Shown here: piece after piece, positions 12,278-48,910 of the stretch
Layout of the letters: each line of letters begins with the position of its first letter
Numbering within the stretch: position 1 is the stretch's first letter
DNA from: Bacillota bacterium
Lineage (GTDB): Bacteria; Bacillota; Proteinivoracia; UBA4975; VEMY01
Length of the DNA: 64,000 bases
Direction of reading: 5' to 3'
Assembly: GCA_009711825.1 (NCBI GenBank)
Contig: VEMY01000005.1
Coordinates: 1 to 64,000, forward strand
The notes under the pieces: model-generated
What the model was told of the DNA's origin: nothing
The model's input: the letters and a program-made list of their open reading frames with translations, nothing else
Databases searched by the model: none
Program-made: the position numbers and the translations under genes

Positions 12278-12305
12278 GGGCATCTGACGATGCCCCTATT
12301 TTTAT
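12278..12305. terminator. Bidirectional terminator
   Basis: Arms GGGCATC/GATGCCC with a TGAC loop; T-rich tracts flank both sides (CTATTTTTATTT on plus, GTTTTATT on minus). It separates the convergent 11831 gene and metG. Confidence 0.85.
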
Positions 12306-13945
12306 TTGCCAAGTTTGGCTAGTTCGATATCGATAATTTCCTTGTCCAGATTGGGGAAGAGAATGCCCGGTTTATGCACTGGTGATTTGGGGCTTAAATT
12401 TACCCGCTCCCACTGTGGATTGTCTAACTCCAGGGCCGCAAAGACTTTTTCACTGGCAAAGGGCAGGAAAGGCGCTGTCAGTACTGCTAGGCTGGCGATT
12501 GCCTTCAGGCAGACAGTGATTGTTGCGGCGCATTGATCAACTTCAGATTTAATCGTCTGCCACGGCGCCTGACTGTCGAAATATTTATTGCTGCGACGCA
12601 CTTGCTCAAAAATTTGTTTCAGGGCTTCTTTGAAGCGGCCCTCCTCAATTGCATTGCCGGCAGTGGTAAAGACGGTATCTATCTCCGCTAACAGCTGCTC
12701 TCCTTCCGGGTTGCTGCCTCCCGGAACAACACCATCAAAATATTTGTGCACAAAACTTACTGTTCGGTTGACTAGATTGCCCCAGGCGCCAGCCAGTTCG
12801 CCATTGTTACGTTCGACAAATTCCCGCCAGGAGAAATCTGCATCCCGGGATTCAGGACCGTTGACGGTCATAAAATAGCGCAGGGCATCGGCAGAGTAGC
12901 TCTCCAAAAACTCGGGAATCCATACCGCCCAATTGCGGCTGGTGGAGAGCTTTTTCCCCTCAATTGTCAAAAACTCACTGGAAACAACGTGGTTGGGAAG
13001 ATTATACTCGGGATTCATGGCCAGAAGAAGCCCTGGGAAGATAACTGTGTGGAAGGGGATGTTGTCCTTGCCATGGACGTAATAACTGACCGCGTCCTTG
13101 CTCCAGAACTCTCGCCATAGATTGGCATCTCCCCGTTGTTCGGCCCAACGGCGGCTGGTGGTGAAGTAGCCCAATACCGCTTCAAACCAAACATAGACGC
13201 GCTTATCTGTAAAGCCCTCGATGGTCAGTGGAATTCCCCAGTCGATATCCCGGCTGATTGCGCGGTCATGCAGCCCTTCCCGCAGATAGCGGCGGGTCAT
13301 TTCCCGGGCATTTAGGCGCCAGCCGCTGCCGTTTGTCTCCAGCAGCTGTTCCAACTCGTGCTGCAAACCGGACAGTTTAAAGAACAAGTGCTGAGTCTCC
13401 CGGCGTCCCGGTTCCTGGCCGCAGAGCTTACAGCGCCGCTCTTCCAACTCTTCCGGGTCCAATAAGGCGCCGCAGGCGTCGCACTGGTCTCCCCGGGCCT
13501 CTTTGGATTGACACCGGGGGCAAACGCCCTCTACATAGCGGTCGGGCAGGAATTTGCTGCAGTTATCGCACCAGGTCTGGAGCATTGTCTTGGTATACAG
13601 CCAGTCCCGGGCGTAAAGGTCTTCAATAATCGCTTGCACCTGCTCCTGATGCTGGGAATCGATAGTCGCAGTGTACAGATCATAACTAAAGCCCAGCTTG
13701 TCGAAGCTCTCCACAAACTCCTGGTGGAACTGTCTGGCCACATCTCCGGGCTTCCGCCCTTCTTCTCCCGCCCGAACGGCGATTGGCGTCCCATGACAGT
13801 CGCTGCCGGAAACAAACAGCACCTTATCCCCCCGCAACCGAAAATAACGGGCAAGAATGTCCGCCGGCAAAAGACCGGCTATGTGGCCCAAGTGCAATGA
13901 ACCATTGGCATATGGCCAGGCAGAACAAATCAAAACATTTTTCAT
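12302..13945 (-). CDS. metG: Methionyl-tRNA synthetase
   Basis: Class I aminoacyl-tRNA synthetase that charges tRNA-Met in the cytoplasm. The HIGH motif is HLGH at 18-21, the KMSKS motif is KLSTS at 332-336, and two zinc knuckles are formed by cysteine pairs at 126/129, 142/145, 155/158 and 172/175. At 547 aa it lacks the C-terminal dimerisation (Trbp111-like) domain seen in many bacterial enzymes. The ATG follows GGAGGTGTCAAG. Expression is controlled by a T-box leader directly upstream that reads the Met codon. Four Cys pairs mark the MetG1-like form. Confidence 0.96.
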   Translation of the reverse strand: MKNVLICSAWPYANGSLHLGHIAGLLPADILARYFRLRGDKVLFVSGSDCHGTPIAVRAGEEGRKPGDVARQFHQEFVESFDKLGFSYDLYTATIDSQHQEQVQAIIEDLYARDWLYTKTMLQTWCDNCSKFLPDRYVEGVCPRCQSKEARGDQCDACGALLDPEELEERRCKLCGQEPGRRETQHLFFKLSGLQHELEQLLETNGSGWRLNAREMTRRYLREGLHDRAISRDIDWGIPLTIEGFTDKRVYVWFEAVLGYFTTSRRWAEQRGDANLWREFWSKDAVSYYVHGKDNIPFHTVIFPGLLLAMNPEYNLPNHVVSSEFLTIEGKKLSTSRNWAVWIPEFLESYSADALRYFMTVNGPESRDADFSWREFVERNNGELAGAWGNLVNRTVSFVHKYFDGVVPGGSNPEGEQLLAEIDTVFTTAGNAIEEGRFKEALKQIFEQVRRSNKYFDSQAPWQTIKSEVDQCAATITVCLKAIASLAVLTAPFLPFASEKVFAALELDNPQWERVNLSPKSPVHKPGILFPNLDKEIIDIELAKLGK

Positions 13946-13966: not shown

Positions 13967-14205
13967 CTAAAAACCCGCCCCAGCCATCGGCCGGGACGGG
14001 TAAGAACCCGCGGTACCACCCCGCTTGTTGTCTTAAGACAACCGCTTGGCGCGCTGTATCGGGCGCTCCCGGCCCGGCCTTGCCCGAAGGTTCGACCGTG
14101 CTGCTCAGGGACCATCTTCGGTCAGAAATCCGTTGTCGGTTCCCACCAATGCCGACTCTCTGCAAACAGATTGACAGACCTACTCTTCCCGTCATTGCGT
14201 TAATT
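13967..14205 (-). promoter_or_regulatory. Met-specific T-box leader
   Basis: Minus-strand leader of metG. It holds the stem I AGAGAGTCGG and GGTGGGAACCGA elements, the specifier ATG at 14113-14115 in the GAAGATGGTCC context, the T-box sequence GGGGTGGTACCGCGG (about 14010-14024), and an intrinsic terminator at 13967-14001 with a T-run. Uncharged tRNA-Met binding would favour the antiterminator and switch metG on. Family knowledge gives the mechanism; the specifier codon matches the gene. Confidence 0.95.
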
Positions 14206-18054: not shown

Positions 18055-18293
18055 CAACTTGGCATCAAGGTAAAGCGTTGAGCGGGATTAGTACCTGCAG
18101 TTATTACGACCGCAGCGAGCCGGGGCGGTGGGAGCCGGCGTCGTTCTTGCAGCGAATGGACCCGTGAGCGTCCGGGGGAAACAAGTATCCCGGAACGGCA
18201 GCCACCGTTATCGGCTTTGAGGGGACCTGTTTACGGTCAACTAAGGTGGCACCGCGGAGATTTCCGTCCTTAAATCAGAGGACGGTTTTTTAT
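18055..18293 (+). promoter_or_regulatory. Trp T-box leader, first of two
   Basis: A complete T-box riboswitch: stem I region, specifier TGG at 18157-18159 in the GAATGGACC context, T-box sequence AAGGTGGCACCGCGG at 18243-18257, and terminator arms CCGTCC/GGACGG at 18264-18285 with a TTTTTTAT run. Uncharged tRNA-Trp should promote read-through. Confidence 0.95.
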
Positions 18294-18299
18294 ATCCAA

Positions 18300-18537
18300 A
18301 TAAAAACAATGGAAAGTGATGATTGGGAGTAGTACCTGACAAACAGGGGCTTTCCAGCGAGCCGGGATGGTGTAAGCCGGCAGCGTCTGGTCAGGGAATG
18401 GACCCAGGAGCGCCCGGGGGAATTAAGTACCCCGGCCGGCAGCCGCCGTTACCGGCAAAAGAGCGGACCTGGTTACAGGTCAACTAAGGTGGCACCGCGG
18501 CTTACCCCCGTCCTTTTTTGAGGACGGTTTTTTATTT
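18300..18537 (+). promoter_or_regulatory. Trp T-box leader, second of two
   Basis: A second complete T-box with specifier TGG at 18399-18401 in the same GAATGGACCC context, T-box sequence AAGGTGGCACCGCGG at 18486-18500 and terminator arms CCGTCC/GGACGG at 18508-18527 with a long T-run. The two leaders are in series, so both must be read through before trpB is transcribed. Confidence 0.95.
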
Positions 18538-18660: not shown

Positions 18661-19869
18661 ATGCAAAACGCCTATAAAACAAAGCGGGGGTTTTACGGAC
18701 AATTTGGTGGCAGCTTTGTTCCCGAGGAATTACAAGTGGTATTAGATATCCTGGAAACCAGGTATACTGAATCGATTAACGACCCGGCCTTCACCCGAGA
18801 ACTGGACAAGATGTACCAACAGGCGATAGGACGTCCTAATCCGCTCTATTTTGCCGAACGTCTAACTGAGAATCTGGGTGGTGCCCAAATATTTTTAAAA
18901 CGAGAAGACCTAAACCATACCGGCTCCCATAAAATTAACAACGCCATCGGACAGGCGCTTCTGGCCCGGCAAATGGGTGCTAAACGGATAATCGCCGAGA
19001 CGGGTGCCGGACAGCATGGTGTGGCCACTGCGACCGCCGCCGCAATGTTTGGCCTGCCCTGCACAATTTATATGGGTGCCGAGGATATGCGCCGCCAGGC
19101 CCTGAATGTTTATCGCATGGAGTTGCTGGGCACTCGGGTCCACAAGGTTGAAGCCGGGGCCGGGACCTTGAAGGACGCAGTTGACGCCGCTTTGGAAGAT
19201 CTGATGGCCCATTACGACACCACCTATTACCTGCTGGGTTCGGCGGTAGGCCCCCACCCTTATCCGGCGATAGTCCGCCATTTCCAGGCAGTAATTGGTC
19301 GCGAAGCCAGAGAGCAAATCCTTCACCAACAGAACCGGCTGCCAGATTATGTTCTTGCATGTGTTGGCGGTGGCAGCAATGCCATCGGTCTTTTTTCCGG
19401 CTTCCTCAACGATTTAAACACCAAAATTATCGGTGTCGAACCAGCTGGTCATGGTCTAAACTCAGGAAAACACGCCGCTCCGCTTTGCAAGGGAAAACCT
19501 GGAGTCATCCACGGCTTTAAATGTCATATGTTGGGCGATAAAGCCGGCAACTCGCGGCCCACCCATTCGCTGGCCGCAGGCCTGGATTACCCCGGCGTCG
19601 GCCCAGAGCACAGCCATTTGAAAGAAACCGGTCGCGCCAACTATGTTGCAGTCACCGACCGCGAGGCCCTGGCGGCCTTCAATGTGCTATCGCGCACCGA
19701 GGGGATAATCCCCGCTCTGGAGAGCGCCCATGCTGTGGCCTATGCGTTAAAACTGGCGCCCACCTTGGCGAAAGAGCAGGCGCTTATTGTCAACCTCTCA
19801 GGGCGCGGTGACAAGGATGTGGCCCAGGTGAGTAAACTGGACAATACCGTCCCGCTCAGCCAAGTATAA
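18661..19869 (+). CDS. trpB: Tryptophan synthase beta chain
   Basis: PLP enzyme that condenses indole with L-serine to give tryptophan. The PLP lysine is Lys91 in [10 protein letters not shown]; the phosphate-binding GGGSNAIG loop and the C-terminal SGRGDKD motif are intact. Length (402 aa) and [10 protein letters not shown] start mark the classic TrpB1 form, which normally pairs with TrpA. Yet no trpA or other trp gene is adjacent: it is monocistronic behind two Trp T-boxes and before a terminator. Either trpA lies elsewhere or this copy salvages free indole. The ATG has AGAAAGGGG upstream. Confidence 0.96.
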
Positions 19870-32035: not shown

Positions 32036-32067
32036 ATAAAAAAAGATGAAAGCTTTTTTAGCTTTCA
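32036..32067 (-). terminator. Terminator of the DUF2892-like gene
   Basis: GAAAGCT/AGCTTTC arms with a five-base loop overlap the stop codon; a T-rich run follows on the minus strand. Confidence 0.8.
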
Positions 32068-32285
32068 CCCAGTTCAATTGTTTGTTTTGGGTTGTCTGAT
32101 GACCAACCCAACATGTCGTACATGACGGAAAAACCATGCAAGCCCTCCATCACGCCCATCACGCCGGTTGCAAAAAGCAAGTCATTGACCTTCGGGTTGC
32201 CTCGCCGCGCCAGGGCATAGCCAGCCAACATGCCTCCGCCAACCATGTGCAGTACCCGATCACGGTAACCAAGATTTCGCCGCAA
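32058..32285 (-). CDS. Small DUF2892-like membrane protein
   Basis: A 75-aa protein beginning RRNLGYRDRVLHMVGGGML, which matches the 'N-GxxDRxxR' start of DUF2892/YgaP-type two-helix inner-membrane proteins; a second hydrophobic stretch lies at LLFATGVMGVMEGL. TTG start after GGGGAGCG. It sits between the MFS operon and the MobB/ECF operon but has its own terminator. Function unknown. Confidence 0.65.
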   Translation of the reverse strand: MRRNLGYRDRVLHMVGGGMLAGYALARRGNPKVNDLLFATGVMGVMEGLHGFSVMYDMLGWSSDNPKQTIELGES

Positions 32286-32337: not shown

Positions 32338-33087
32338 TTAGTCATTGTTAATCTTAATTTCAATTGGTTTATGCGCCTGGTAACCGTCTAAGGTCGAAAC
32401 CAGGCCAATTAAGGTTTTTGCCAACACTTCTTGAACAAAGGGCACCATCGTTATATCCTGTTCGCCTACTTTCAGGCGCACCCGCTGCTCCAGGACACAG
32501 TCTTCTCGGCTTGCCTGGCCGCGGTTAATCTGCCCCAAGAGGTCACGACAGGACATCCCACAGAGACCGCAACACTCAGCGGTGAAGTCAGGCAAGAGCT
32601 TTGGCACTTTTGCCTCGACAAACTTAAGCAGTTGCTCAGATTCCCTGAGGACATTAAATACCGGCAGCCCCTTATACTCGCTGTCAATCCTGTTGGCAAT
32701 TACACCGGCAATCCCAATGACATAAGCATCCAGCTGCTGCTCGATACCCTCTTCATCATGAGCGCAGATTATCCGCGGCACATTGGCGTCACGTACGCCC
32801 TCCAGCACTACCCAGTCATGTTCATAAAAGCTGAGTATTTTCTGAATCGGTAGTTTGCCTGGGAACAAAACATCAGTCTCCTGCATGCCCCGGGCCGTTA
32901 CCAGCTGGGCGCCGGCTGACCGGTGGCGATCGGTGTTGGACCCCGGGGTATCAATAGCAAACTTCTCAAAGTGAATATCCTTCACCGAGCCCACGCTGTA
33001 TCTCTGCCGGCGCAGCCCGGAAATTATCGTTTCCACAGTTGTCGTCTTGCCTGAGCCCGTGATTCCGGTTACAGAAATCACCCTCAT
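32338..33087 (-). CDS. mobB: MobB-like P-loop GTPase
   Basis: A 249-aa protein with a Walker A GITGSGKTT (GSGKT at 11-15) and the MobB-type layout (SVKDIHF, DTPGSNTDRHRSAGA, VLEGV). MobB helps attach nucleotides to molybdopterin. A C-terminal extension with a cysteine cluster (CCGLCGMSC then a further Cys about 23 residues on) could bind a metal or cluster; it is absent from minimal MobB. The start overlaps the EcfT stop (TAATG). It closes an operon with an ECF transporter, linking uptake to cofactor synthesis. Confidence 0.85.
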   Translation of the reverse strand: MRVISVTGITGSGKTTTVETIISGLRRQRYSVGSVKDIHFEKFAIDTPGSNTDRHRSAGAQLVTARGMQETDVLFPGKLPIQKILSFYEHDWVVLEGVRDANVPRIICAHDEEGIEQQLDAYVIGIAGVIANRIDSEYKGLPVFNVLRESEQLLKFVEAKVPKLLPDFTAECCGLCGMSCRDLLGQINRGQASREDCVLEQRVRLKVGEQDITMVPFVQEVLAKTLIGLVSTLDGYQAHKPIEIKINND

Positions 33088-33827
33088 TACAGCCACCCCC
33101 TGTAAATTGACATCAGTGTCAAACCTCCAAGTAACGAGCCGAAAATTATTAGGTAATCCACAGTTCGCAAAATCGGTGGTTCCAAGTAGGTGCGCCGGGG
33201 ATAGGCGCGAAATGCCCGCGCTTCCATAGCTGTGGCTACCCGACGTGCCCGGAGCACAGCCCCGGCAACCACCGGCAGTAATATATAGTTATATATACGC
33301 AGTTTCTGCCCCAGGGGAATGTTGGCAAGCTCCACGCCCCTGAGCTGCACTGCGGTGAGAGCGTCCTGAAATTCCTCGGTGAGGACCGGCAGAAAACGCA
33401 TTGCCAGCAAGACCATGAAGGCCAACTCATAGGGGACTTTCCACTTGATTAGCCCCATGGCTATCTGCTGCGGGTCTTTGCGATTTAAGAGCATCACCGC
33501 GCCGACAATAATCAAAAGGCGCAATAGCACTGAAAATGCAGCCCAAACACCTTCTACAGTGAGCAAACGGAAATCGCCAATCTGCACAAGGACGCTGCCG
33601 CCGGAATGAGCCAGGCTTTGGATTACCAGTAAACCCAATAATAGCGGCGCGAACCGGCGCGCGCGCCTAAGCAGCCGCATGTACTGCACCCGGCCGAGGG
33701 CCAACAATATCAACACAAATAAAAACAAGCCCCCCAGCCAAAAAACCTGATTCAGATAAATAGCCAGACTTGTAACAACCAGAACAAAGGTCAGAACAGA
33801 ACGGGGATCAAGCTCCTGATTAAACAT
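33087..33827 (-). CDS. ecfT: ECF transporter T component
   Basis: A 246-aa transmembrane scaffold of an energy-coupling factor transporter: four to six hydrophobic segments and the coupling-helix region with the ARRVATAMEARAFRAYPRRT stretch (the EcfT/CbiQ 'A-R-x' signatures contacting the ATPases). It overlaps the upstream ATPase gene by 8 bp. With two ATPases and an S component in the same operon it forms a dedicated, not a shared, ECF module. Confidence 0.9.
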   Translation of the reverse strand: MFNQELDPRSVLTFVLVVTSLAIYLNQVFWLGGLFLFVLILLALGRVQYMRLLRRARRFAPLLLGLLVIQSLAHSGGSVLVQIGDFRLLTVEGVWAAFSVLLRLLIIVGAVMLLNRKDPQQIAMGLIKWKVPYELAFMVLLAMRFLPVLTEEFQDALTAVQLRGVELANIPLGQKLRIYNYILLPVVAGAVLRARRVATAMEARAFRAYPRRTYLEPPILRTVDYLIIFGSLLGGLTLMSIYRGWL

Positions 33828-34473
33828 GGAGACGCCCCCCTTCCAGACGGAGGATTCGAGAGCAGCTGTCCTGGCTCAAATCGGGGTCATGGCTTATCAG
33901 GACATAACCGCAGCCCCTTTTTCGAACCAACGTCAACAACTCGCGAAAGCTCTGTTTGCGAAACCAATCCATGCCTGTGGTGGGCTCATCGAAGATCACA
34001 AATTCCGGCTCCAAAATCAGGACGCTGGCCAACGCCAAACGCTGCTTTTCACCCTGGCTGAGATTAAAAGGGAAACTATCAGCACAATATTCCAGCTCGA
34101 ACAACTCCAACATCGCCTGAACCCTGCGCTTGATCTCCCCATCAGCAACCTGTCGGTGGCGAAGGCCGAACCCAATTTCCTCCCTCACCGAGGGGGTAAA
34201 CAGCTGTTTTTCCGGATTTTGAAATATATAGCCGATGCGCCGGCCCACCTCGGCCAAAGAATATTGGCCCAATGGTTTGCCCGCTAAGTGCACCTGGCCA
34301 TTGGCAGGCTGCAGAATTCCAACCATAATCTTACCCAACGTTGTCTTGCCGCTTCCGTTGGCGCCGACCAGGGCAACAGTTTCACCGGGATGGATTGCCA
34401 AACTAATGTCTGTAAGCACTTGCCGGCCACCAGGCCAGGAAAAATTAACTTTATTTAAGCTTAAAAACTCCAT
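33820..34473 (-). CDS. ecfA: ECF transporter ATPase (second)
   Basis: A 217-aa ABC ATPase: GANGSGKTT at 37-45, Q-loop IFQNPEKQLF, signature LSQGEKQR, Walker B FVIFDEP. The Q-loop 'NPE-QLF' form is typical of EcfA/CbiO. The start is MEFLSL at 34473 because GGAG lies 8 nt before it. It is in tandem with a second EcfA and overlaps EcfT. Confidence 0.9.
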   Translation of the reverse strand: MEFLSLNKVNFSWPGGRQVLTDISLAIHPGETVALVGANGSGKTTLGKIMVGILQPANGQVHLAGKPLGQYSLAEVGRRIGYIFQNPEKQLFTPSVREEIGFGLRHRQVADGEIKRRVQAMLELFELEYCADSFPFNLSQGEKQRLALASVLILEPEFVIFDEPTTGMDWFRKQSFRELLTLVRKRGCGYVLISHDPDLSQDSCSRILRLEGGRLHV

Positions 34474-34487
34474 ATCATTCACTCCGT

Positions 34488-35216
34488 TTATTGCCTGGGC
34501 CGATAGTAGCGCTCCAAAGCACTCAACACTTCATTGTAACTTGCCGCTACTTCAATACTGCCGGAACTAATGGCGATCACCCGGTCAGCCTGGCGCAACT
34601 GTTCAAGATTGTGTTCAACCATTACTACCGCCGTTCCCCGGCGTCGCACATCGGCGATTATTGCCTGAATGCGTTCCGCCCCGGCTGCATCCAGCTGCGA
34701 AGTAACCTCATCGAGTATTAGAATCTTCGGCTCCATGGCCAACACCGCTGCCAGGGCCACAATCTGCTGCTGGCCGCCGGAAACCTGGTTGGGATTATTG
34801 GGTAATAGGGCGGAGATTCCTGTTCGCGCTGCCACCGTTTCAATTACCCGGGCAATATCCGCCGGTTCGCGGCATAGGTTTTCCGGGCCAAAAGCGAGCT
34901 CGTTGCGAATCACTGGCAAAAACAACTGACTTTCCGGATCCTGAAACACAATCCCCACCTGAGTGGCAATAGCAGGCAAAGTAATCTCCCGGGTATCCTT
35001 GCCAAACAGCAAGACCTCCCCGGACATGTCACCACCTTGCTGGTGGGGAATAATGCCGCTGAGACATAAACATAAAGTGCTTTTCCCGCAACCGCTAGGG
35101 CCAACCACCCCAAGCATTTCCCCCGCAGACAGTGAAAAGCTGACATCTCTTAATACCTGTGATGCATCAGGGGAATAGCGGTAAGACAAGTTCCTGACGG
35201 TAAGTGCGTCCGTCAC
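34488..35216 (-). CDS. ecfA: ECF transporter ATPase (first)
   Basis: A 242-aa ABC ATPase: GPSGCGKST at 39-47, Q-loop FQDPESQLF, signature VSGGQQQ, Walker B LILDEVTSQLD. It differs enough from the neighbour to form a heterodimer. Its start overlaps the stop of the SUOX-fold gene by 4 bp, so it is translationally coupled to it. Confidence 0.9.
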   Translation of the reverse strand: MTDALTVRNLSYRYSPDASQVLRDVSFSLSAGEMLGVVGPSGCGKSTLCLCLSGIIPHQQGGDMSGEVLLFGKDTREITLPAIATQVGIVFQDPESQLFLPVIRNELAFGPENLCREPADIARVIETVAARTGISALLPNNPNQVSGGQQQIVALAAVLAMEPKILILDEVTSQLDAAGAERIQAIIADVRRRGTAVVMVEHNLEQLRQADRVIAISSGSIEVAASYNEVLSALERYYRPRQ

Positions 35217-35716
35217 CGCACCTCGGCCTCGACAGCGAATTTACACCAGCGCTGACCGAACTCATCCTGGCGGGGGATTACCAACAAAGGTCCGCTGCCG
35301 CCCGAATCTTTGGTGCCCAGCGGCTCACCGTCCCGTTCCCAGACCAGGTACAGATGCTCTTCACGCAGAACTTCTTCCACAGGAAACGCTACCGTGTAAC
35401 CATCAATCGCTTTGACGGTGACTACCTCCACGCCCTGGAGTATATCCGCATCTGTTGCCTGAAGCACCGTAGACAACGGAACACCTGTATAGGTGTTGTC
35501 CACCGGCTCCTTGCCACTGGAGCGCAGGGTTTTTGTAAACTGGGACTGATTGAGCTGCTGCAGCGCCGCCAAATCCAGCGTTGTGGTTTCGTCGCCGTAT
35601 GTCACAGTGAAGTTTGCGTCTTCGTAACCCTCGACATCCGGCCGGTTGATATATGCCAGCACACCAACCAGAACGACCAGCAGCACTATCACAGCGATTA
35701 ACAATTTGTTACCCAT
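35213..35716 (-). CDS. Membrane-anchored sulfite-oxidase-fold (molybdopterin-binding-like) protein
   Basis: A 167-aa protein with an N-terminal anchor (LLIAVIVLLVVLVGVLAYI) and an extracytoplasmic domain resembling the molybdopterin-binding domain of sulfite-oxidase-type enzymes (FTKTLRSSG ... YTGVPLSTVLQ ... VKAIDGYTVAFPVEEVL ... GPLLVIP). The cofactor-ligating Cys of true SUOX enzymes is not evident, so it may bind pterin or another small ligand rather than catalyse. Placed between the S component and the ATPases, it could be a receptor-like partner for uptake. That role is an inference. Confidence 0.7.
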   Translation of the reverse strand: MGNKLLIAVIVLLVVLVGVLAYINRPDVEGYEDANFTVTYGDETTTLDLAALQQLNQSQFTKTLRSSGKEPVDNTYTGVPLSTVLQATDADILQGVEVVTVKAIDGYTVAFPVEEVLREEHLYLVWERDGEPLGTKDSGGSGPLLVIPRQDEFGQRWCKFAVEAEVR

Positions 35717-35771
35717 AAATCAATCTACCTCCCATAAGAAAACGAATTATTATATCCAGCAAAACATCTTA

Positions 35772-36332
35772 TCACTCGACGCCAATTTTAAATCTGCGCA
35801 ACTGCTTCAAAAGTCCAAAAGCCACCAATCCACCAAGCCCACCAGCCAAAGAAAGGACGGCAGTTAAGAGCGCCAAAAACACTAGGGGTGCATCTAATAT
35901 TGGCACCCGCATTACAACTGTCAGCACCGGTAAACTGCCAGCAAAGTTGGCGACAACACCGCCAGCGAAAGCGCGGGGCGGCGACGTAGGTCCGGGGCGC
36001 ACAAGCAAGTACAACAGGTCAACAGCAATCCCGGGCAGGGTGTAACTTACAAGACTGAAGGCGCCGTGGTTGCCGAAAGGGGAAACTAAAACCATTAACG
36101 CCTGAACAAGCGCAATCAGTGTTGCCGACCCCGGCTTGTTGCCGGTGAGTCCATACCCCAACACAATCCACAGCATGTAGAAACCACCAGCGACAACTCC
36201 TCCCGGAATAAAAAGCGGGCCGGTAATGATCTGTGCCAGCGGAGTAACGATTGGCTTAATTGCGATACCCAGGGCGGCCATCATTGTAATTATAACTAGA
36301 TCAAGCAGCGAGAATCGCTTAAGTAAGGACAA
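35772..36332 (-). CDS. ECF transporter substrate-binding S component
   Basis: A 186-aa membrane protein with about six hydrophobic segments and the small-residue-rich first helix (LVIITMMAALGIAI) characteristic of S components that dock on EcfT; the ITGPLFIPGGVVAGGFYMLW stretch resembles the YkoE/ThiW-like group. The TTG start at 36332 has GAGGTGAT 4-6 nt upstream. First gene of an operon ending with MobB. Substrate is unknown; context suggests a molybdenum/tungsten or pterin-related solute. Confidence 0.8.
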   Translation of the reverse strand: MSLLKRFSLLDLVIITMMAALGIAIKPIVTPLAQIITGPLFIPGGVVAGGFYMLWIVLGYGLTGNKPGSATLIALVQALMVLVSPFGNHGAFSLVSYTLPGIAVDLLYLLVRPGPTSPPRAFAGGVVANFAGSLPVLTVVMRVPILDAPLVFLALLTAVLSLAGGLGGLVAFGLLKQLRRFKIGVE

Positions 36333-36341
36333 TATTATCAC

Positions 36342-36591
36342 CTCTCATTAGAAACACTCTGCCAGGATGGCAGCGGCTCCAATACTTCTTAATCTCACTT
36401 AGTATTACTTTCTCAAAGCACATATGCCGGCTGACAGTTCAAAGTTTTAGTGATACCCGTGCTATGATAAGATTATATTAAATCAGTAGTTAATACTAAT
36501 AATCAAATGATAATTAAAACCCCAAAAGCACTTAATTTTAGTCATATTCCGCTGTCCTGACAAATATCATTATCCTAGCAAAGCAACCGGG
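36342..36591 (-). other. AT-rich gap between riboswitch and S component
   Basis: No gene recognised. It contains a CTGCCA/TGGCAG hairpin at 36359-36373 close to the start of the S component gene. A 20-codon minus-strand frame has no ribosome site. Confidence 0.4.
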
Positions 36592-36619
36592 ATAAAAAAA
36601 TACCATTCCCATGGAATGG
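36592..36619 (-). terminator. Intrinsic terminator after the putative riboswitch
   Basis: CCATTCC/GGAATGG arms with a 3-nt loop are followed on the minus strand by TATTTTTTTATC. It lies 16 bp after the structured element at 36636-36740, so a transcription-attenuating switch is likely. Confidence 0.8.
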
Positions 36620-36635
36620 CAGCATTAAACAAGCA

Positions 36636-36740
36636 GACAGGCTCCTTTCCACGCCGGGAGGCACGTCCGTTTCCAAACGCACCCTGTCGCCCCGAGCAGC
36701 CTGGCCATCGCTGTAGCCTTTCGGGGTCGGAGTTGAGTTA
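36636..36740 (-). promoter_or_regulatory. Candidate Moco/Tuco-type riboswitch
   Basis: On the minus strand this is a GC-rich structured element in an AT-rich gap. Arms CCCCGA/UCGGGG enclose a CAGC/GCUG stem; a second helix GACAGG/CCUGUC encloses GCCUCCCGGCGUGGAAAGGAG, which resembles the conserved GCCUCCC...GGAAAGG core of the molybdenum-cofactor RNA motif as I remember it. It lies upstream of an ECF-MobB operon and is followed by a terminator, both fitting. I could not align it to the family model, so the class assignment is provisional. Confidence 0.6.
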
Positions 36741-36819
36741 GTGCTTTATTTCGCTACAGACTCTCGTTTCTCCTGCAAAAACAAGTATTTTTACCTGGTA
36801 AACTTAGGAGGGGTGGAAG

Positions 36820-45997: not shown

Positions 45998-47062
45998 CTA
46001 GGGACAGATTACAAAATTCCGGGCCCACAAGCAATCCCCGCAAGTGGGCATATTGCCTTCGCAGTCCCAGACTGTTGAATTAATTATCTCACAGCCATCC
46101 ACCAATTCACAGTCCATACAAGAGGGGTACTGATTGGTAAACACTGTATAGCGAAAGCGTCGGTAGGCTTCGCTGTTCCAAATCTCTCGAAGCGTCTGCT
46201 TCTTAATTGAGCCAAAGGAATGACGTACTACTTCTTTCGGTCGCTCAAAAACATATTCCCGGCCATTATGGGCCAGACGATAGCACGGCACCACGTCGCC
46301 AAGATAGTTGATCATCATTGCCGCCTCGTCGATAAACCGGCAGCGTCGGATGGTCTTCAATTCATAATTAGGAAGAACTAGATTCACTCCGCGCAAAAAC
46401 GAGTGATTGCGAACCCGGTTAAACAAGTTGCGCATTGCTTCATTCTGATATCGGGAATAAAGAATTTTACCGCTGTGTTCCTCGGTCTGGGGTACAAGAT
46501 TGGATATGATTACGCCGTGGATTTTTTCTTGGGCAGCGAGATCAATCACGGAGCGCAGCGAATCAATATTATCACAGGAAGCGACAAATTGCAGCCAGAG
46601 GGTGGGACCGCCAGAGTGGCGTCGTAGATTTGCAAGTCCCGCACGCACCTGCTGCAAATCTGTGCCGCGTATGCGGTAATATTCCTCGTCGCCGCCATCT
46701 ACGGAAATCACCAATTTATTGACATGGGCTGCAATTAGTTTAGCGATTCGGTCTTCGGTCAAAGAGATTCCGTTGCTGGTCACTGTCAGTCGACAGGAAG
46801 CAAACAACTTTACAGCACGGTCAAACAGTGGCGCATGGGTCGGTTCGCCAATTCCACCCAACACCACCTCTGGATGCTCGCTAAACCTTGCAGCCTCCTG
46901 CGCCAGCGCCTCCAGCAACTCCCCGGGCAAATCCCCTGTTCCTTCTGTCCAGGCGCGACGGTAGCAAATTTGGCAATTTAGATTACAGCGACTGGTAAGT
47001 TCCAAATAGAGGCGCCGAGGTTCAGAATCTATAAAGTTGGGCACATAACCCGGTTTTTCCAT
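45998..47062 (-). CDS. Tungsten-cofactor oxidoreductase radical SAM maturase
   Basis: A 354-aa radical SAM enzyme: Cys26, Cys30, Cys33 in CNLNCQIC bind the S-adenosylmethionine [4Fe-4S] cluster, GGIGEPT is the GGE-like motif and SNGISL the SAM contact. A cysteine-rich C-terminal SPASM-type region (CMDCELVDGC ... CEGNMPTCGDC) would hold further clusters. In family terms this matches the maturase found beside tungsten AORs. It is co-transcribed between AOR and MoaD. The reaction it performs on the AOR is not established here. Confidence 0.88.
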   Translation of the reverse strand: MEKPGYVPNFIDSEPRRLYLELTSRCNLNCQICYRRAWTEGTGDLPGELLEALAQEAARFSEHPEVVLGGIGEPTHAPLFDRAVKLFASCRLTVTSNGISLTEDRIAKLIAAHVNKLVISVDGGDEEYYRIRGTDLQQVRAGLANLRRHSGGPTLWLQFVASCDNIDSLRSVIDLAAQEKIHGVIISNLVPQTEEHSGKILYSRYQNEAMRNLFNRVRNHSFLRGVNLVLPNYELKTIRRCRFIDEAAMMINYLGDVVPCYRLAHNGREYVFERPKEVVRHSFGSIKKQTLREIWNSEAYRRFRYTVFTNQYPSCMDCELVDGCEIINSTVWDCEGNMPTCGDCLWARNFVICP

Positions 47063-47116: not shown

Positions 47117-48910
47117 TTAGCTGATATCTAGTTCCTGCAACTTCGCGCTGGTCGGTACACCATTGGCATCCCAGCCCCGCTGCTCATAATACTCAGGCAG
47201 CAGCTCTGCTAGCTGATGAACCTTGCCCTTGGCGGGGCCATCAGGCATCGGCTCTTCCAGCAGTCGCTTAGGCAGTGTATCGTCTGCCTTGGTAAAGCCA
47301 GCCTCCAGGTTAAACAAACGCTCCACGTTCCAGATCCGCTCACCGGCGGTAAGCAAGCTCTCCGCTGTGTGCTCGCTGCCAGTAACAGCATTCAACAATT
47401 CTGCATAATCTTCAGCGCCCAGAGCAAAGGATGTGAAGAGACAAAGCCCCATGGAATCAATGGCCGCAGTCAGGTCCTGGAATATCTTGGACCAGGTAGC
47501 CTTACCTTCCAAGCTGAACCGATCCAGTTTTTCGGGCACACCGAGAATCTCAGGCGAAATCAGGTAGCCCCGGACATGGCAGCCGCCGCGGTTGGTAGTA
47601 GCATACTGGAGGCCCATTCCCTGAATTCCCCGGGGGTCATAGGCCGGTAATTCCAGCTTCTTGACACTCATCGACACCTCTGGCATACCGTACATCTCGC
47701 CCAACCGGTAGGAACCTTCGGCCAATTTATCGCCAAAACCTTCCCGCATACCCATCGCCTTTGTCCAGTGTATAACCGCGTCAGCATCACCAAACTCCAA
47801 GCCGGCGCCGTTCAATTCATCGGCCTTAATCTTGCCTCGTTGGTAAAGCTCCATCGCAGCGGCAATCGTTGTGCCGGCGGAAATTGTATCCAGGCCCATT
47901 TCATTACACCAATAATTGGCCTTGATAACCGAACCCAGGTCTTTGACCCCACAATCGGCGCCGAAGGCCCATATTGTTTCATATTCGGGTCCTCCACCCT
48001 CCACATCATCGACAACGCAGTAACGGCCGCAGCCAATTGGGCACCGATAACAGACGTCCTTCTTGGTCAGATACTTCTCAGCCAGGGTTTCACCGCTAAT
48101 TGCCTCGGCATCCTTAAACACGCCTTCTTGGAAGTTATTGGTGGGAAAGACGCCGTTCTCATTGATGATATTGACCAAAACTGCCGTGCCGTATGCGGGC
48201 AAACCCTGTCCGGTGACGCCATGCTCGCGGATTTTCTTAATCGCAGCACCGGTAATTTCTTTGAGCTTCTCCGGATTGGCCACAGCCACTTTCTTGCTGC
48301 CCTTGACAACGACAGCCTTGAGATTTTTGGAGCCCAAGACCGCGCCAACACCGGAACGCCCAGCCGCCCGATATCGATCGTTCATCACGGCAGCCAGCTT
48401 CGAGAGCTTTTCGCCGGCCGGCCCGATGTTCAGCACTTTAGCCTTATCGCCATATTCCTTCTGCAGAAGATCTGTTGTTTCGGAAGTCACCTTGCCCCAA
48501 AGATGGTCGGCATCCTTTATTTCCACATTATCGTCTTCTATGCTCAGATAGACCGGCTTCTCGGCTTTACCTTCAAAAACCAGGAGGTCATAGCCCGCAA
48601 ACTTAAGTTCGGCGCCCCAAAAGCCACCGGAGTTGGAACAAGCAATGGTGCCGGTGAGCGGAGACTTGGTAATGACCATGTAGCGACCACCCGTCGGCGT
48701 CGGCGTGCCGGTGAGCGGACCAGTAGCAATAAATACTTTGTTATCCGGACTTAGGGCATCAACACCTGCCCCCACCTCATCGCGTAAAAGCTTTTCGGCC
48801 ACGCCGCGGCCCCCGATGTACTTGGTTGCCAATTCCGAATCAAGCGTCTCTGTCTGTACCGTCCGTTCGGTGAGATTAACCCGCAGAATCTTTCCGTTAC
48901 TTCCATACAT
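47117..48910 (-). CDS. aor: Tungsten-type aldehyde:ferredoxin oxidoreductase
   Basis: A 597-aa AOR-family enzyme that oxidises aldehydes to acids with ferredoxin, using a tungsto-bis-pterin and one [4Fe-4S]. Cluster ligands are Cys287, Cys290 and Cys294 (CYRCPIGC) and Cys490 (MGLCLF). The N-terminal YGSNGKILRVNL and GGRGVAEKLL segments are standard. The start at 48910 has GGGGGTAGAG upstream. A -24/-12 promoter lies before it and the sigma-54 activator gene is next to it, so transcription is conditional. First gene of AOR-rSAM-MoaD-MoeB. Confidence 0.95.
   Translation of the reverse strand: MYGSNGKILRVNLTERTVQTETLDSELATKYIGGRGVAEKLLRDEVGAGVDALSPDNKVFIATGPLTGTPTPTGGRYMVITKSPLTGTIACSNSGGFWGAELKFAGYDLLVFEGKAEKPVYLSIEDDNVEIKDADHLWGKVTSETTDLLQKEYGDKAKVLNIGPAGEKLSKLAAVMNDRYRAAGRSGVGAVLGSKNLKAVVVKGSKKVAVANPEKLKEITGAAIKKIREHGVTGQGLPAYGTAVLVNIINENGVFPTNNFQEGVFKDAEAISGETLAEKYLTKKDVCYRCPIGCGRYCVVDDVEGGGPEYETIWAFGADCGVKDLGSVIKANYWCNEMGLDTISAGTTIAAAMELYQRGKIKADELNGAGLEFGDADAVIHWTKAMGMREGFGDKLAEGSYRLGEMYGMPEVSMSVKKLELPAYDPRGIQGMGLQYATTNRGGCHVRGYLISPEILGVPEKLDRFSLEGKATWSKIFQDLTAAIDSMGLCLFTSFALGAEDYAELLNAVTGSEHTAESLLTAGERIWNVERLFNLEAGFTKADDTLPKRLLEEPMPDGPAKGKVHQLAELLPEYYEQRGWDANGVPTSAKLQELDIS

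Follow-up and report, generated by a model that had tools for sequence, protein, structure and literature searches.

An ECF transporter operon behind a molybdenum/tungsten cofactor riboswitch is predicted to take up preformed pterin cofactor in Bacillota

We investigated a 64,000-nucleotide stretch (hereafter the window; contig VEMY01000005.1, positions 1 to 64,000, assembly GCA_009711825.1) from a Bacillota bacterium of the Proteinivoracia (UBA4975; VEMY01), in which six minus-strand genes form an operon for an energy-coupling factor (ECF) transporter and associated proteins. We consider it probable (roughly 0.78) that this operon serves to salvage the pterin cofactor of molybdenum or tungsten (Moco or Tuco) by taking it up in preformed state. 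The genes follow a Moco/Tuco riboswitch and a terminator, their order is conserved among relatives, and neither MoaC, MoeA nor an oxyanion binding protein was detected in the host, which encodes Moco/Tuco enzymes. The original prediction, made from the sequence alone, had proposed a link to Mo/W-pterin metabolism; the riboswitch, the conserved synteny and the complementarity with loss of Moco synthesis make this link stronger than was claimed.

Profile searches of the window bore out the six gene identities put forward earlier: S component, SUOX-fold protein, EcfA, EcfA', EcfT and MobB (Table 1). This corresponds to a dedicated-module ECF transporter, with an S component, EcfT and two EcfA-type ATPases in one operon. 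The top NCBIfam match of MobB was to 'MobB/FeS domain' models and its start is likely the ATG at 33087. The overlapping stops and starts previously taken to indicate one transcript held at three of the five junctions (few-base overlaps at SUOX/EcfA, EcfA'/EcfT and EcfT/MobB) but not at EcfA/EcfA' (5 nt apart) or S component/SUOX (55 nt apart). A small YgaP-like transmembrane protein is encoded directly downstream of MobB (32058-32285, minus strand) and may share the transcript.

Table 1 Features of the ECF operon, its leader and a nearby tungsten enzyme locus in the window.
Feature	Position	Strand	Evidence
Moco/Tuco riboswitch aptamer, P3-less form	36626..36744	-	RF01055, cmscan 58.5 bits
Intrinsic terminator directly behind aptamer (expression platform)	36601..36621	-	9-bp stem then TTTTTTTATC
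ECF S component (substrate-binding, membrane)	35772..36341	-	PF09819, 42 bits; YkoE fold
SUOX-fold protein, N-terminal anchor helix	35213..35716	-	PF00174, 34 bits
EcfA, ECF ATPase	34488..35216	-	TIGR04520, 200 bits; PF00005
EcfA', ECF ATPase	33820..34482	-	TIGR04520, 168 bits; PF00005
EcfT, ECF transmembrane coupling protein, CbiQ family	33087..33827	-	PF02361, 82 bits; TIGR02454, 60 bits
MobB-type GTPase, C-terminal Cys cluster	32338..33096	-	PF03205, 66 bits; NF011064
Aldehyde ferredoxin oxidoreductase (AOR, tungsten), outside operon	47117..48910	-	AFOR_N + AFOR_C
Radical SAM maturase of tungsten-cofactor oxidoreductases, outside operon	45998..47062	-	TIGR04317, 352 bits (cut-off 380)

The riboswitch match was well above the RF01055 gathering cut-off of 36 bits (E = 1.8e-11 for the window) and its alignment spanned positions 1-135, the full model. 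Nearly all of it (36744-36626) falls within the region delimited by the original prediction, which ended at 36740 and left the element unnamed. The P3 positions were deleted in the alignment, and this P3-less form of the RNA class has been tied to the tungsten cofactor (Regulski et al. 2008, PMC2408646). A whole-genome search returned only two RF01055 matches in the host, both on parts of the proposed uptake system. The second, on contig C40, repeats the layout of the operon leader (promoter-like site, P3-less aptamer, terminator, gene) and lies upstream of two genes, one for a SUOX-repeat lipoprotein and one for an exported type I phosphodiesterase/nucleotide pyrophosphatase (PF01663). In relatives, both genes are part of the operon itself. 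In E. coli, RNA of the RF01055 class represses even without MobA (PMC2408646), so the RNA senses Moco rather than its guanine dinucleotide form, as would be expected if it responds to what is imported. Some genomes carried more than 12 Moco riboswitches, several closely tandem (G061, contig C21; G383, 26 RF01055 matches).

The genomic make up of the host (completeness 99.76%), in which gene absence was judged by protein family searches, points to a cofactor user rather than a cofactor producer. Neither MoaC (PF01967) nor MoeA (PF03453) had a match in the host, or in any operon-carrying genome of the same order, in searches that did not cover MoaA, MoaD/E or MogA; both were detected in 11/14 control genomes. 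Searches for PF13531 or TupA-type binding proteins likewise detected no TupA, ModA or WtpA in the host. The PF12849 match there was PstS, beside PstC/PstA, the stronger PF13531 match was an aminoethylphosphonate-type protein, and a weaker PF13531 match (C40:25933-26700; 371 aa, 46 bits) received no closer inspection. In loci of the formate dehydrogenase type the host encodes two molybdopterin oxidoreductases, both with an in-frame TGA, and it has an AOR and maturase pair within the window, ~10 kb upstream of the riboswitch; the AOR probably consumes the cofactor. Also retained are MobA and a MocA-like nucleotidyltransferase. Thus, as far as the MoaC and MoeA searches reach, this is the profile of Moco salvage. 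The steps that bring in the oxyanion, make the pterin and insert the metal were not found, while those of nucleotide addition and cofactor use were kept, and this combination fits import of a metal-loaded mononucleotide cofactor. The original prediction had left the substrate as an oxyanion, a pterin or a cofactor precursor; since the host retains MobA, MobB and Moco/Tuco enzymes with no detectable MoaC, MoeA or TupA/ModA/WtpA, the genome evidence favours a finished or nearly finished cofactor.

This complementarity was also apparent across the phylum, where the S component was present in 47/399 sampled genomes. Among genomes at least 90% complete and with a strong PF00384 match, it occurred in 10/14 MoaC-negative genomes versus 22/213 MoaC-positive genomes (odds ratio 21.7, P = 5e-7). 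The ten MoaC-negative carriers span seven families, which argues that the pattern is not that of one lineage only. The association was strong only once genomes lacking molybdopterin oxidoreductases were set aside; irrespective of enzyme content it was weak, with 19/47 carriers lacking MoaC. TupA or a strong ModA was detected in 0/17 MoaC-negative carriers versus 7/8 tested MoaC-positive carriers (P = 2e-5). Within a single genus, the S component is missing from genome G056, in which MoaC and TupA are present, whereas G095 has the S component operon and no MoaC, MoeA or TupA.

The co-occurrence of S component, SUOX-fold protein and MobB in other genomes, which the original prediction had proposed as a check, was found in the form of a conserved gene order. 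The order S-SUOX-EcfA-EcfA'-EcfT-MobB was repeated in dozens of genomes from many families, so the arrangement is not due to chance. Carriers include the isolates Alkaliphilus peptidifermentans, Anaerovirgula multivorans, Maledivibacter halophilus and [Clostridium] ultunense. A comparison of 80 named loci revealed a fuller version of the operon, comprising an FMN-binding protein, SUOX-repeat lipoprotein, S component, phosphodiesterase, SUOX-fold protein, EcfA, EcfA', EcfT, MobB and an APH-like kinase; we infer roles in the system for the FMN-binding protein and the kinase of these relatives. Scanning the same loci with our own covariance model, built from 22 riboswitches, gave 52 riboswitch matches, all on the operon strand (52/52), and a riboswitch was present upstream of 32/47 operons having enough upstream sequence. 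In G247, a distant case with no MoaC or MoeA match, a strong Moco riboswitch directly precedes a diverged S component, and a MobA-type gene lies downstream.

Variants of the locus were also observed. No EcfA or EcfT genes were found next to diverged S components immediately before MobB (L070, L072, L074 and L076), which might therefore draw on a shared energizing module. MoeA has its place within the operon, flanked by MobB and the APH-like kinase, in L045 (7692-8192) and in related loci (G284, G096) from genomes that keep Moco synthesis. In L046 (4384-7253; G052), a TupABC tungstate importer and a ModE-like helix-turn-helix gene adjoin the ECF operon.

The model of the SUOX-fold protein (predicted local distance difference test score, pLDDT, 92) has a single N-terminal helix. 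Its seven best solved structural matches were PruR pterin-binding proteins, ahead of sulfite oxidases, and included 7kom, 7kos, 7kou, 7kp2 and 7rkb. The Mo-ligand Cys of SUOX enzymes is replaced by Ser/Thr at the LRSSG position, a residue matched by inspection and not via a ligand-bound structure, and no Cys was found there in 55 homologues. The protein therefore does not have the Mo-ligating Cys of a SUOX-family enzyme and instead resembles PruR, a SUOX-fold, exported protein lacking this Cys. PruR is a periplasmic pterin receptor (PMC13259868). Hence the suggestion that the SUOX-fold protein serves as an external receptor gained support, and we predict that it is an outer receptor for a pterin or the cofactor. 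Conserved features were also seen in other proteins of the system. The CxxCGxxC-type tail of MobB was present in 45/47 homologues, and an alignment of the phosphodiesterase at the second riboswitch showed D295, T331, D428, H432, D468, H469 and H480 conserved in 28-29/29 homologues; these are all seven metal and catalytic positions (D, T, D, H, D, H, H) in the two-metal site of the nucleotide pyrophosphatase/phosphodiesterase family.

A sequence search of the S component against the PDB gave no match; its relationship to a solved structure was found by fold search. The AlphaFold model (pLDDT 90) was closest to 5edl (template modelling score, TM, 0.73; 17% identity), which we take to be YkoE-type, the PDB record saying only S component. 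Lys28 and Arg144 are conserved and would suit an anionic ligand.

Together, these proteins could operate as follows. Anchored SUOX-fold proteins outside the cell would bind the pterin cofactor, and the secreted phosphodiesterase would cut dinucleotide forms, such as molybdopterin guanine or cytosine dinucleotide (MGD or MCD), to the mononucleotide cofactor. The S component would then bring the cofactor in, metal included, at the expense of ATP and with the help of a dedicated EcfA/A'/T module. Inside the cell, MobB with MobA would attach GMP for the formate dehydrogenases, while AOR may use the cofactor with no added nucleotide. Once Moco/Tuco is abundant, the riboswitch would stop transcription via the terminator behind the aptamer.

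Several points weigh against uptake of the finished cofactor. Free Moco is oxygen-sensitive, and therefore an outside supply would have to be anaerobic or protein-bound. The S component is folded like YkoE, which is of the thiamin type. MoaC was present in 28/47 carriers, and so the system is not restricted to auxotrophs, while the S component was not detected in four near-complete genomes that lack MoaC and have a strong PF00384 match. The association tests were not corrected for shared ancestry, and 15/47 operons had no riboswitch upstream within the fetched sequence. Finally, the PruR site is reported to be truncated and probably unable to hold Moco (PMC13259868), and the ligand of a receptor resembling PruR might thus be a smaller pterin. 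Import or sensing of such a pterin (neopterin or monapterin), as for PruR, would also accord with PruR being the closest structure to the SUOX-fold protein. However, the operon showed no partner of the DcpA type, the riboswitch and MobB indicate Moco, and a simple pterin is no substitute for missing MoaC and MoeA, leaving this alternative highly improbable. Import of a metal-free precursor (molybdopterin or cyclic pyranopterin monophosphate), with the metal inserted by an unrecognised route, is unlikely. The SUOX fold binds pterins and, in G284 and G096, MoeA inside the operon could metallate an apo-form there. In the host, by contrast, neither MoeA nor an oxyanion binding protein was detected, and the simplest import product is for this reason one that already bears its metal.

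Other substrates accord less well with the genomic context. The ECF systems known for Co and Ni, and the MoaC-negative carriers with no detected TupA/ModA, would be compatible with import of molybdate or tungstate by an ECF counterpart of ModABC, TupABC or WtpABC. The riboswitch class, moreover, controls molybdate transporters as well (PMC2408646). Yet an imported oxyanion is of no use without MoaC and MoeA, neither of which was found, several MoaC-positive carriers own TupABC or ModABC too (in G052 directly beside the ECF operon), and an outside pterin-binding-type protein and phosphodiesterase would be pointless for an oxyanion. Oxyanion uptake was rejected as the principal function, given that hosts lacking MoaC and MoeA cannot use it and that TupABC coexists with the operon in others; we judge it very unlikely. 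Import of a thiamin precursor or other vitamin, in the manner of the fold relative YkoE, would agree with the PF09819 match and with 5edl as the closest solved structure, but identity to the latter is just 17%, the riboswitch is of the Moco/Tuco and not the thiamin pyrophosphate (TPP) class, and the neighbours include MobB and SUOX. An Rfam scan of the window returned no TPP riboswitch, its matches being RF01055 and T-boxes only. The original prediction held that S components confirmed as thiamin/HMP type (YkoE-like), with freely varying neighbours, would reduce the link to cofactor metabolism to chance; the S component does have the YkoE fold, but its neighbours are conserved. The class of the riboswitch, the gene neighbours and the phyletic pattern, including the association with MoaC loss, led us to reject the thiamin reading, and there is very little chance that it is correct. 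Uptake of the preformed Mo/W cofactor remains our preferred explanation.

Outside the operon, the T-boxes comprised a tandem pair of leaders (18069-18518, plus strand) upstream of a gene for a pyridoxal phosphate-dependent enzyme (18661-19869) and a leader (13989-14204, minus strand) upstream of a methionyl-tRNA synthetase-type gene (12302-13945).

The operon shares features with several known systems. Like YkoEDC (thiamin/HMP type) and other dedicated-module ECF vitamin transporters, it combines a YkoE-fold S component, two EcfA ATPases and a CbiQ-type EcfT under cofactor riboswitch control. Unlike YkoEDC, it has a Moco/Tuco riboswitch, low identity to YkoE, MobB and an extra predicted receptor of the SUOX fold, to which relatives add a secreted phosphodiesterase. 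The architecture is therefore that of a known ECF transporter, but the predicted substrate is not known for any ECF system, and both substrate and physiology would be new. PruR of Agrobacterium, Vibrio and Klebsiella is likewise a small, exported protein of the SUOX fold that lacks the Mo-ligand Cys (PMC13259868), but it signals to DcpA and c-di-GMP, whereas the SUOX-fold protein here is membrane-anchored, located in a transporter operon and found in Bacillota. The RNA class is identical to that of the Moco/Tuco riboswitch regulon, whose genes, in contrast, serve synthesis or oxyanion transport or are enzymes (Regulski et al. 2008, PMC2408646). That study treated as exceptions two P3-less RNAs that precede 'putative sulphite oxidase' genes in S. 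wolfei, and these genes may belong to the proposed system as SUOX-fold receptors. TupABC, ModABC and WtpABC also supply Mo/W, at times from beside the operon (L046), but these are classical ABC importers with a substrate-binding protein and were undetected in MoaC-negative carriers.

The prevailing view is that cells needing Moco must make it themselves, with Caenorhabditis elegans as the exception (PMC9793310). As proposed for the operon, C. elegans acquires mature dietary Moco from outside and then uses it, although this is an animal with no known transporter for it (PMC9793310). No report of a bacterial Moco or molybdopterin importer, salvage or auxotrophy system was found among the open-licence papers in PMC. 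It is moderately probable that the genes described here make up a full bacterial route for living on the Mo/W cofactor of others, through SUOX capture, phosphodiesterase trimming, ECF import of the metal-loaded cofactor and nucleotide re-addition. If true, bacteria unable to make the Mo/W pterin cofactor would obtain it ready-made, under riboswitch control, and this would have allowed anaerobic Bacillota to lose repeatedly the entire pathway for making Moco and importing the oxyanion.

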